64,000 bases of DNA. It comes from Nocardioidaceae bacterium SCSIO 66511. Its GTDB lineage: Bacteria > Actinomycetota > Actinomycetes > Propionibacteriales > Nocardioidaceae. The notes under the pieces are model-generated. The model made no database searches. It saw nothing but the letters and a program-made list of their open reading frames with translations, and was not told the DNA's origin. How positions within the stretch are numbered: position 1 is the stretch's first letter; each line of letters starts with the position of its first letter. Positions 31,650-47,718 of the stretch are shown in pieces. Position numbers and translations under genes: made by a program. The stretch is from assembly GCA_023100825.1 (NCBI GenBank), contig CP095846.1:3658001-3722000 (forward strand), given 5' to 3'.

Positions 31650-31867
31650 TGAGCCCTCCGCGGCCGATGCGGGTCCCGAGCCGAACGCCGCCCACCATGC
31701 CGCACGCCGGCGTGAGCCGCAACCGCGCGATCAGCTCTCTGAAGGGTTGGCCTTGGGCCGGCGTACGCGAGGCACACGGTCGAGCACGATCGGCTCATCA
31801 TCACGGGCGCGACAGCCGTGCGGCAAATGCGTGTGCCCCGCCATGGTGGTGCTCAGGTGGCGGGGTG

Positions 31868-33226
31868 TCAGGCGGCGGCGTGTTTTCGCTTCTCTGGAAC
31901 GGTTGTGTCTGTTCTGCCGGGGAGTTTTGTGGTGGTGCCGGCTGTGACGAGGTACGAACGGCCTGCCGGTGACAGCCACAACCAGATTCCGGGTGCCGGT
32001 GACGACGCGGTCCAGGCGGTGAATGTCTTGGCCCGGTGATGGAACCGACAAAGTCGGTGTCCATTTCGTGAGTCGGTCGGACCACCGTCGGTGTAGTTGC
32101 GGATGTGGTCGTAGTCGCCGAGCTTCGCCGGACGGGTGCAGTACGGGAATGTGCAGGTGAGGCCGTTCATCAGCGCGGTCTGCTCGCGTAGCCGCAGGGG
32201 TGCGACATATCCGGTGGTCGAGATCGTCGTCTCCAGATCGATGACCGGCTTCACCACGATCCGCGACGATTTGCCGAGGATCTGTTCGGCCTCGGTACGG
32301 GTGATGGCGCCGACGTCGTCGAGTGACCAGGTGCCCCAGCACCTGTCGTAATGAAGGTAGAGCACGGTCTCGCGCAGCCCACGCCTTCTGCTGCCGCGCC
32401 GCTTCGACGGCTTCGGATCGTCGGTCTCCGCGCCGGTGGCGTCGTCGGTTTTGTCTGCGACGAGGGTGTAGAGGTCGTCGAGGCTGTCGGGTTCGTGGAC
32501 CATGCCCATCGCAACGGAGCGGAGGATGTGGTCCGGTCGGGTGTCGCCGAGGAACCGCATCGACTCCACCAACTGATCAAGGCGCTGATCCAGCCGCTGC
32601 CCGTCGTCGACGGTGAGGGTGCCCGAGATGTGGGCGACGCCGTCTTCGAACCAGATCGTCACACCCCGCCGCCTGCGCGCCTCCCGCCGTTTCTTTTCGG
32701 CACCGTCGGGGTCGTCGACGAACCGGATCTGATCGAGCACCAGCTGCAGCCGCGGCATGGTGATCCGTGCGATCAACGGTGTTCCGTCGACATTCGCAGC
32801 GCTCAGGCGGCGGTCGGCATCGCCGGCTTGGGCGATGGTGAACTCCCGCGTCGCACGCGCGACTTTACGGATCCGCCACGCATCCACACTGCCTTCGTGC
32901 AAACAGGCGTACAGGCGTGGGAGCCGGTACGCCAAATCAAGTCCGTCCGCGATCAGAGCCCGGGCTCCGTTCGCGGAGAGGCCGAGGACGGGGCCGACTT
33001 CGGCGACCGCATACTCCGACACACCGGGTGTGCCGGATCCGCCGTAGCGGGTCCATTCATTCACCCCACCCGCCTGCGCGAGCGGCTCGACGGCGATTTG
33101 CCGCAGATAAGAAAGGACCGCGTCGAACTGTGCGGCCTCGGTGCGGGCGAGCTGAGCACGCGCGGCCGCAGCGATGTCGAGACCGTCAGTGGTCTCGACA
33201 TCGTCGATCAGGTTCGCCGTCCTCAT
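31868..33226 (-). CDS. DUF222 / 13E12-repeat family protein with HNH endonuclease domain (gene 3)
   Basis: A 452-residue DUF222-HNH protein. The N-terminal domain (about 20-250) includes VNEWTRYGGSGTPGVSEYAVAE; a basic patch (KRRGSRRRG) comes before the HNH region at about 357-405 with CTFPYCTRPA, YDHIRNYTDGG and LCRFHHRAK, all intact. ATG 33226 is preferred because it lies 18 nt after the promoter motif shared with gene 1, the same spacing; ATG 33235/33238 and GTG 33250 are in frame. About 218 bases between its stop and the GntP gene show no convincing gene. Confidence 0.87.
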   Translation of the reverse strand: MRTANLIDDVETTDGLDIAAAARAQLARTEAAQFDAVLSYLRQIAVEPLAQAGGVNEWTRYGGSGTPGVSEYAVAEVGPVLGLSANGARALIADGLDLAYRLPRLYACLHEGSVDAWRIRKVARATREFTIAQAGDADRRLSAANVDGTPLIARITMPRLQLVLDQIRFVDDPDGAEKKRREARRRRGVTIWFEDGVAHISGTLTVDDGQRLDQRLDQLVESMRFLGDTRPDHILRSVAMGMVHEPDSLDDLYTLVADKTDDATGAETDDPKPSKRRGSRRRGLRETVLYLHYDRCWGTWSLDDVGAITRTEAEQILGKSSRIVVKPVIDLETTISTTGYVAPLRLREQTALMNGLTCTFPYCTRPAKLGDYDHIRNYTDGGPTDSRNGHRLCRFHHRAKTFTAWTASSPAPGIWLWLSPAGRSYLVTAGTTTKLPGRTDTTVPEKRKHAAA

Positions 33227-33244
33227 ACCCCGCATCATGCCACT

Positions 33245-33258
33245 CGCCACTGACAGTC
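33245..33258 (-). promoter_or_regulatory. Motif GACTGTCAGTGGCG upstream of DUF222 gene 3
   Basis: The same 14-mer as at 1785-1798, here on the minus strand and 18 nt before ATG 33226. CATGAT, 7 nt before that ATG, could be the -10. It is a probable promoter-linked operator shared by genes 1 and 3. Confidence 0.45.
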
Positions 33259-33275
33259 GAGGGGCTCAGAAGGCC

Positions 33276-33284
33276 TTATCCACA
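33276..33284 (+). promoter_or_regulatory. Perfect consensus DnaA box
   Basis: TTATCCACA matches the 9-mer DnaA box exactly. It lies in the 256-base gap between DUF222 gene 3 and the phosphodiesterase, next to an A+T-rich palindrome. No second box is seen nearby, so this is not an origin; a titration site or chance is possible. Confidence 0.4.
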
Positions 33285-33294
33285 AGGGAAAACG

Positions 33295-45019: not shown

Positions 45020-46672
45020 GTGGATGCAGATGTCATCGTCGTCGGAGCGGGACTCGCCGGTCTCGTCGCAGCGGCCGAGTTGACCGAACGCGGCAAATCG
45101 GTTCTGCTCGTCGAGCAAGAGCCCGAGCAGAACCTCGGCGGCCAGGCGTTCTGGTCGTTCGGCGGTATCTTTCTCGTCGGCTCCCCCGAGCAGCGGCGGA
45201 TGGGAGTACGCGACAGCCATGCGCTCGCCCTCCAGGACTGGATGGGCACTGCAGCATTCGACCGTGCCGAAGACGAGTGGCCGAGGCGCTGGGCAGAGGC
45301 GTACGTCGACTTCGCCGCCGGCGAGAAGCGGGCGTGGCTCCGCGAGCGCGGCGTACGGTTCTTCCCGATCGTCGGCTGGGCCGAGCGCGGCGGCTACGAC
45401 GCAACCGGACACGGCAACTCGGTGCCCAGGTTCCACATCACCTGGGGAACCGGCCCGGGCATCGTCGCCCCGTTCGAGCAGCGCGTGCGCGCAGCGGCGG
45501 AGTCGGGACGACTGCGGTTCTGCTTCCGGCATCGGGTCGATGAGCTCGTCATGTCCAACGGCTCCGTCACAGGTGTACGCGGGGCAGTGCTCGAGCCGAG
45601 CGATTCACCGCGCGGCGCTCCGACCACAAGGACCGAGACGGGCGAGTTCGAGCTGTCCGCGCAGGCGGTGGTCGTCTCGTCCGGCGGCATCGGCGGCAAC
45701 CACGACCTCGTGCGGGAGGCCTGGCCGACCACGCTCGGCACGCCGCCCGAACACATGCTGGCGGGCGTACCCGCGTACGTCGACGGGCGGATGATCGGCA
45801 TCACCGAGAGCGCGGGCGGGCACGTCATCAACCGCGACCGGATGTGGCACTACGTCGAGGGCATTCGCAACTACGCGCCCGTCTGGGAGAACCACGGGAT
45901 TCGCATCCTGCCCGGCCCGTCGTCGCTGTGGCTCGACGCAACCGGCCGACGTCTTCCGGTGCCGCTGTTCCCGGGCTTCGACACCCTCGGCACCCTCGAG
46001 CATCTGCGTACGACCGGCTACGACTACAGCTGGTTCGTACTCAGCCAGAAGGTGATCGAGAAGGAGTTCGCGCTGTCCGGATCGGAGCAGAACCCCGATC
46101 TGACCGGCAAGAGCATCCGCGAGGTTCTACGACAGCGACTGAGTGCCGGCGCTCCCGAACCGGTCGAGGCGTTCAAGCAGCAGGGCGCGGACTTCGTCGT
46201 CGCCGACACCATCGGCGAGCTGGTCGCCGGGATGAACGCCGTAGCCGGCAGCGACCTCCTCGACGCTGCCGACGTGGAGCGTCAGGTCGTCGCCCGCGAC
46301 CGCGAGATCGACAACGCGTTCACGAAGGATCTGCAGGTCACCGCGATCCGCGGGGCACGCAACTATCGAGCGGACAAACTGTTCCGCGTCGCGCCACCGC
46401 ATCGACTGCTCGACCCGTCGGCCGGGCCGCTGATCGCAGTCCAGCTCCACGTCATCACGAGGAAGAGCCTCGGTGGGCTCAACACCGACCTCTCCGGGCG
46501 CGTACTCGATGCGACAGGTGAACCGGTCCCCGGCCTGTACGCGGCCGGCGAAGCGAGCGGCTTCGGCGGCGGAGGCGTACACGGCTACCGCTCCCTCGAG
46601 GGCACTTTCCTCGGCGGATGCATCTTCTCCGGCCGCTCCGCCGGACGCGGCGCTGCCGACGCCGTGGGCTGA
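45020..46672 (+). CDS. FAD-binding dehydrogenase, succinate dehydrogenase/fumarate reductase flavoprotein fold (KstD-like)
   Basis: A 550-residue FAD oxidoreductase. VIVVGAGLAGLVAAAEL (residues 5-21) binds FAD; VVVSSGGIGGNHDLVRE and LYAAGEASGFGGGGVHG are typical of actinobacterial FAD-binding dehydrogenases related to 3-ketosteroid dehydrogenases. The substrate is unknown, and no steroid genes adjoin. The start GTG 45020 has GGAGG 5 nt upstream; the longer frame to 44867 overlaps the divergent gene and was rejected. Confidence 0.88.
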   Translation: MDADVIVVGAGLAGLVAAAELTERGKSVLLVEQEPEQNLGGQAFWSFGGIFLVGSPEQRRMGVRDSHALALQDWMGTAAFDRAEDEWPRRWAEAYVDFAAGEKRAWLRERGVRFFPIVGWAERGGYDATGHGNSVPRFHITWGTGPGIVAPFEQRVRAAAESGRLRFCFRHRVDELVMSNGSVTGVRGAVLEPSDSPRGAPTTRTETGEFELSAQAVVVSSGGIGGNHDLVREAWPTTLGTPPEHMLAGVPAYVDGRMIGITESAGGHVINRDRMWHYVEGIRNYAPVWENHGIRILPGPSSLWLDATGRRLPVPLFPGFDTLGTLEHLRTTGYDYSWFVLSQKVIEKEFALSGSEQNPDLTGKSIREVLRQRLSAGAPEPVEAFKQQGADFVVADTIGELVAGMNAVAGSDLLDAADVERQVVARDREIDNAFTKDLQVTAIRGARNYRADKLFRVAPPHRLLDPSAGPLIAVQLHVITRKSLGGLNTDLSGRVLDATGEPVPGLYAAGEASGFGGGGVHGYRSLEGTFLGGCIFSGRSAGRGAADAVG

Positions 46673-46730: not shown

Positions 46731-47149
46731 GCGACTACCCGATTCCGCCACCCTATCGGCCTTCTCGGCTACCTGGGTTAGGCAAAAGACGCGGCGACGC
46801 GCGGACCCGCCACTTCGGCTCACATTGTTTGGCGGCTTTCCGCGCCACCTTAATATGGGATCGGGGTAACGTTCGGTTTCGGCGTCACTCCAGTACCGGT
46901 AGTCGCTGGCGTACCAACGGGCACGGCAACCTGTCACTTTGCACGGCGCATCTGCCATGCAAAGTGGAGTTTCACCATGTTTACTTGGTAAACCACCACC
47001 GGCCGACGCCGCAAGAGCCGACCGGAACGGGTTAGCCGGCGAGCAACCCAGCCACGTAGTTGCGGCTCCCGCGTCGCCGCGTCTTTAGCGCAACCGTATG
47101 AAGCGGGAAATGCCGACAGCGTGCGGAACCGGGACAGGCGGGTAGTCGC
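46731..47149. repeat. Diverged inverted-repeat element in a gene-free stretch
   Basis: Two related blocks face each other: 46731-46801 (plus) and 47149-47070 (minus). Each begins GCGACTACCCG and ends AAAGACGCGGCGACGCG; these 11-mers and 17-mers are exact inverted copies, and the 45-50 bases between them are alignable but diverged. The 268 bases inside hold further palindromes. The stretch 46673-47202 has no convincing gene, and its base composition is less GC-rich than its flanks. No transposase is present. It could be a non-autonomous mobile element or a structured RNA or DNA site. Confidence 0.6.
46935..46993. repeat. Nested palindromes in the centre of the inverted-repeat element
   Basis: CACTTTGC (46935-46942) and GCAAAGTG (46959-46966) are perfect 8-bp arms around a 16-nt loop that itself contains CGGC/GCC. 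Just after it, GTTTAC-TTG-GTAAAC (46979-46993) is a second perfect palindrome. Both look A+T-rich against the local background. Confidence 0.6.
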
Positions 47150-47202: not shown

Positions 47203-47718
47203 CTAGTCCGCCAGCACCCGTGCCCGAACCAGCCAGACTCCCCCGCCGAGCAGCACCCCGAGACCCAGCACCAGCACGATCCCGGACGCAGGCTCGACGT
47301 CGTCGGCGATGAATGCGCCCAGCCACAAGGCGATCGCGATTCCGCCGAGAACCGCAGCACGCGTTCCCCAGCGTCGGTACGAGGCGGCTCCGAGGTGTGT
47401 GCCGGGCGGCGTGAGGGACGCGATGCTGGCGCACAGATGCATAAGGACGAGGCAGCAGGCAGCAACCGGGGTGAGCATGCTGAGCTCATTCTCGACGACC
47501 ATCAGCCAGTTCGCGAGCAGTAGGGCGATCGAGACTCCGACGACTTGACCGTCTGGGTACGCGGCCGCGCCGACGGCACATGCCAGTGCAGCCGCGCCGA
47601 CGACCCACGACCCCGCGGTCGGCGACGCGCCGGATGTCAACGGTGCGATCAGCACGACGATCAACGCACAGCAGACCAAGGCTGCTCGAAACACCAGCGC
47701 GTGCGGCGAGATCGTCAT
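47203..47718 (-). CDS. Small membrane protein of the MoxR/DUF58 operon
   Basis: A 171-residue protein with about five hydrophobic helices (ALVCCALIVVLIAPLTSG; LACAVGAAAYPDG; VSIALLLANWLMVV; GIAIALWLGAFIADD; IVLVLGLGVLLGGGVWLV). No family is recognised. ATG 47718 overlaps the DUF58 stop by 4 nt (ATGA), so it is the last gene of the five-gene operon and probably works with it at the membrane. Confidence 0.8.
   Translation of the reverse strand: MTISPHALVFRAALVCCALIVVLIAPLTSGASPTAGSWVVGAAALACAVGAAAYPDGQVVGVSIALLLANWLMVVENELSMLTPVAACCLVLMHLCASIASLTPPGTHLGAASYRRWGTRAAVLGGIAIALWLGAFIADDVEPASGIVLVLGLGVLLGGGVWLVRARVLAD

Follow-up and report, generated by a model that had tools for sequence, protein, structure and literature searches.

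The window, which is the whole stretch of 64,000 nucleotides analysed here, carries a repeat element between two convergent genes, a FAD-binding gene with its stop at 46672 and a minus-strand gene for a 171-aa protein with its stop at 47203. The two arms of the repeat, 71 nt (46731-46801) and 80 nt (47070-47149) long, lie in opposite orientation and share an outer pair of exact 11-base sequences (GCGACTACCCG at 46731-46741 and CGGGTAGTCGC at 47139-47149, 100% identity) and an inner pair of exact 17-base sequences (AAAGACGCGGCGACGCG at 46785-46801 and CGCGTCGCCGCGTCTTT at 47070-47086), the latter inside a 26-nt pair at 88% identity. The ends of the repeat read CGACTACCCGCC and the arms AAAGACGCGGCGACG. 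These inverted blocks, their exact ends and two palindromes between them are all where the original prediction had placed them. Peptides in opposite frames that resemble each other, which the same prediction had pointed out, are explained by the inverted arms, and neither of the two overlapping ORFs reaches the Pfam cut-off. The repeat matches no Rfam family, in keeping with the earlier remark that no known RNA family is present, and no tRNA was found in it. The window copy can be folded into one long branched hairpin (z -6.2). A terminator scan of this copy returned only two weak sites, on which ground an intrinsic terminator was rejected, and no U-tract follows the palindromes. The parts of the element are listed in Table 1.

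Table 1. Parts of the repeat copy in the window (window coordinates)
Feature	Position	Strand
Whole repeat element, 1 of ~80 copies in G000	46731-47149	+
Left outer unit, ~53-55 nt, which other copies have repeated; possibly preceded by another, degenerate unit	46731-46781	+
Left inner arm AAAGACGCGGCGACGCG.., conserved block	46782-46810	+
Conserved left-body block TTAATATGGGATCGGGGTAACGTTCGG (module A); also in sister-species locus L009	46850-46880	+
Degenerate palindrome where the sister species has P1 (GTACCAACGGGCACGGCAAC)	46906-46931	+
Hairpin H, CACTTTGCACGG-N8-CCATGCAAAGTG	46935-46966	+
Palindrome P2, GTTTCACCATG-TTTA-CTTGGTAAAC	46969-46993	+
Right body; AGCCGGC.AGCAACC block complementary to left body	46994-47055	+
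Right inner arm ..CGCGTCGCCGCGTCTTT, most conserved block	47056-47090	+
Right outer unit with CGGGTAGTCGC at its end; possibly followed by a second, diverged unit as far as ~47192	47091-47149	+

Used as a query against the genome of the strain itself (G000; 4.6 Mb, one contig), the 419-base element found, besides the window copy, at least 39 more long matches with identities of 79-87%, from 40 scored candidates out of 112. At up to 3 mismatches, P2 is present 80 times in G000 and a reversed control of it 0 times, counts that depend on the search pattern. The original prediction, made from the window alone, did not recognise a family of ~80 copies, or that its core also exists alone. Because the same layout recurs in dozens of places in G000, the window element is neither a one-off nor a product of chance. 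Read alone, the window copy with its diverged arms would fit an inverted repeat that arose by chance, or the degraded remains of two unrelated genes, but ~80 copies of the same layout rule this out and leave it next to no probability. In an alignment of 40 copies from G000, 102 of the 406 columns have at most one variant, where ~7 would be expected if variation were uniform. Conservation is highest in H, P2, the right inner arm and a block around 46853-46880, and lowest at the ends. The closest pair among these copies is still 12% different, so the spread within G000 appears to be old. An exact match to the outer unit at G000:C1:3524091, with no P2 listed within 10 kb, is either a solo end or a remnant.

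The long element is modular. Its conserved core, hairpin H and palindrome P2, is set in long degenerate arms. In the consensus, the left arm matches the right one in inverted orientation, less clearly so in the window copy. Each end carries up to three outer units of ~53-55 nt. The left modules are interchangeable: module A, which the window copy carries, is present in 43/79 copies, module B in 19/79, and both in one. Module B carries a perfect palindrome, GCGGTTTGCCTTGGTACCAAGGCAAACCGC, which we noted in the left part of some copies (L085, L092, L098, L051, and L094); the left part of L094 has an additional GTCACTGTCC..GGGACAGTGAC hairpin. Both inner arms are present in 48/79 copies, and the remainder lack one or both. 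Arms of the same copy are no more alike (identity 0.734) than arms of different copies (0.736). Hence, the long arms look inherited, and their maintenance by pairing in each copy was rejected. Covariation was absent from P2 and weak in H among the G000 copies.

G001 is the only other species of the genus that we compared. It has at least 40 compact arrays of the same palindromes, arranged as P-H-P or P-H-h at fixed spacing, i.e., a palindrome P (GTTTACCATG-nnnn-CATGGTAAAC), the hairpin H and then either another P or a short half hairpin. The body and arms are present as well at one G001 locus (L009). Among the arrays with a callable stop codon, 29 of 31 have P starting 8-38 nt past it. Two P-H-P arrays fold with z about -12. 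Paired changes in P1 and H occupy 62 cells, against 39.8 ± 5.5 in shuffles, and are also above those of slid pairings; subfamilies or template-switch correction of palindromes may account for part of this excess. Searching relatives, a check that the original prediction had called for, traced related repeats to G001 only: G001 aside, 58 relatives gave no true match, and neither did ~390 further genomes from the order. Two short matches of 23-25 bp in other genera (L010 and L011) and one 3-mismatch palindrome in G102 were taken as chance, as were 7 matches in unrelated taxa from a scan of named GTDB genomes from which near relatives were left out. As far as these sequence searches reach, the repeat family is apparently confined to the genus.

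With respect to genes, 35 of 75 copies in G000 lie between convergent genes, compared with 3 of 38 background gaps, all from one window (p=2e-5), and divergent gene pairs are avoided. In tandem gaps, P takes the stop side in 23 of 27 cases (p=3e-4). Gene calls were those of a home-made codon-usage caller. Most repeat positions differ between G000 and G001. At two intergenic sites, L088/L120 and L094/L141, both species carry a repeat, and at a third common site (L148/L128), an orthologous gene end, an H-like hairpin is still paired with different letters. A search for empty sites, also proposed in the original prediction, yielded a near-empty one, where ~488 bp in G000 (L016) correspond to 18 bp in G001; an insertion on one side or a deletion on the other could lie behind each such site. 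At the position of the window element, G001 has no copy but another gene, and DNA at this place (L143, 7080-8589) resembles window positions 31833-33290. We also inspected 15 gene ends in G000 that are orthologous to those behind which G001 arrays lie. Most have only a short unrelated stretch, and three have other hairpins (L103/L156, L118/L155, and L130/L154). One copy, in L078 (3-815), adjoins an apparently truncated reading frame, which we take to be a tricorn-type protease, possibly a gene broken near the insertion.

These hairpins might be RNA elements that the host maintains at gene 3' ends, kept by selection for transcript end formation, nuclease protection or insulation of convergent genes. 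Such a role, which is compatible with a mobile origin, is favoured by the distance of P from stop codons and its side in tandem gaps, by the folding and paired changes of the G001 arrays, by the L128/L148 hairpin, and by the other hairpins at the same gene ends in G000. However, insertion tolerance could also give the placement, the palindromes have no U-tract and the window copy only its two weak terminator sites, and in G000 neither covariation in P2 nor coevolution of the arms within copies was seen. We regard this as a tentative possibility. The structured RNA of the original prediction is supported for the compact G001 arrays, with paired changes above shuffles and one orthologous hairpin paired with different letters, and is not supported for the long arms, in which no coevolution within copies was seen. 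On a host role the evidence points both ways: pairing in G001 speaks for it, and the lack of pairing evidence in P2 and the arms of G000 speaks against it.

We looked for enzymes and insertion traces that could account for the spread. No Y1/RAYT transposase (PF01797) was matched in G000 or G001, with 8/14 control genomes positive, and RAYT/IS200-type mobilisation was rejected because no Y1 protein was found. Inspection by eye of L016/L144 and of the G001 array sites showed no evident target duplication, and orthologous DNA is ~20% diverged. A composite transposon between two close copies in L041 was rejected, as the intervening genes are ordinary. Correia elements are MITEs, high-copy and noncoding, with inverted-repeat ends (PMC3049150, background). 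The genus repeat is like them in having terminal inverted repeats (the arms are ~73% alike within copies), no coding capacity and a high copy number; it differs in that its ends are variable tandem units, and no clear target duplication was found at the inspected junctions.

Two other classes of repeats are close in character. Like REP, BIME, and REPIN sequences (PMC3733652 and PMC3116915), the genus repeat consists of short intergenic palindromes, present tens of times near gene 3' ends, in inverted groups that are mosaic with other motifs and have varying stems. REPs in other phyla likewise lie shortly after stop codons or within convergent gene pairs (PMC3733652); the word "Actinobacteria" is absent from the main text of that survey. 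Unlike REPs, the genus repeat comes without a Y1/RAYT transposase and as three adjacent palindromes at fixed spacing, which in G000 lie inside a 420-bp long-armed element. REP-type sequences are tagged with GTAG or CGTC, whereas the stem flanks in G001 have GTAG in 0/110 and CGTC in 14/110. Since tag and transposase were tested and not found, we do not class these repeats as RAYT-type REPs. BOX repeats of Streptococcus pneumoniae, which together with RUP are enriched between convergent genes, are also modular and intergenic, with a variable number of tandem units and predicted RNA structure (PMC3049150). This likeness is one of architecture only, and BOX has its variable units in the middle and its constant part at the ends, the reverse of the genus repeat.

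We suggest, with a probability of roughly 0.7, that the block in the window is one copy of a genus-specific, mosaic family of palindromic non-coding intergenic repeats (REP/BIME/BOX-like) that was spread by a trans-acting factor and now has its hairpins in the 3' regions of genes. Among bacterial palindromic repeats the family is new; it is of a kind already known, with an unusual architecture. The dispersal bears out the non-autonomous mobile element of the original prediction insofar as ~80 copies, mosaic modules and a near-empty site in the sister species are mobile-element-like. We favour past mobilisation in trans and infer that copies spread by a transposition-like process, in which the mobilising enzyme probably recognised the palindromes or the arms and would now be lost or unrecognised. 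Copies would have been retained mainly behind genes, at positions tolerant of insertion, and their hairpins would there become part of the 3' untranslated RNA; the placement at 3' ends could come from insertion tolerance or from use. The conservation of blocks exceeds that of a purely decaying parasite, which counts against this reading. An improbable alternative is that the arrays are a genus-specific gene 3'-end module, used by the host to form RNA ends or to bind a protein; it would move from one gene end to another and be replaceable there by other hairpin families, with the 420-bp element as a mobile derivative that captured the module. The family adds a well-populated set of palindromes in a high-G+C genus without the transposase usually held responsible, and the compact and expanded forms in two related species offer a natural comparison for how a repeat grows, spreads and settles behind genes.

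A dimeric DNA-binding or nucleoid protein of the genus could also bind the palindromes as duplex DNA, its operator being TTACCATG-nnnn-CATGGTAA, a reading that we consider unlikely. Across 39 aligned G001 arrays, the half-sites are nearly invariant and the central four bases and outer flanks variable, and a second palindromic repeat combines the same half-sites with a GGCC centre, both of which would fit an operator. However, the half-site search pattern itself favours intact sites, P2 in G000 departs from the operator, and the three palindromes of an array stand side by side at the 3' ends of genes and not at promoters. The positions of copies round the G000 chromosome are random, which rules out a chromosome-domain (macrodomain) signal. 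The second repeat (GGATTACCATGGGCCCATGGTAATCC) was seen near GCAAATTTGC at ~1116 of G001 L126; it is also present in G000 at L156, the ortholog of the G001 L103 site, and several more are present in G001.
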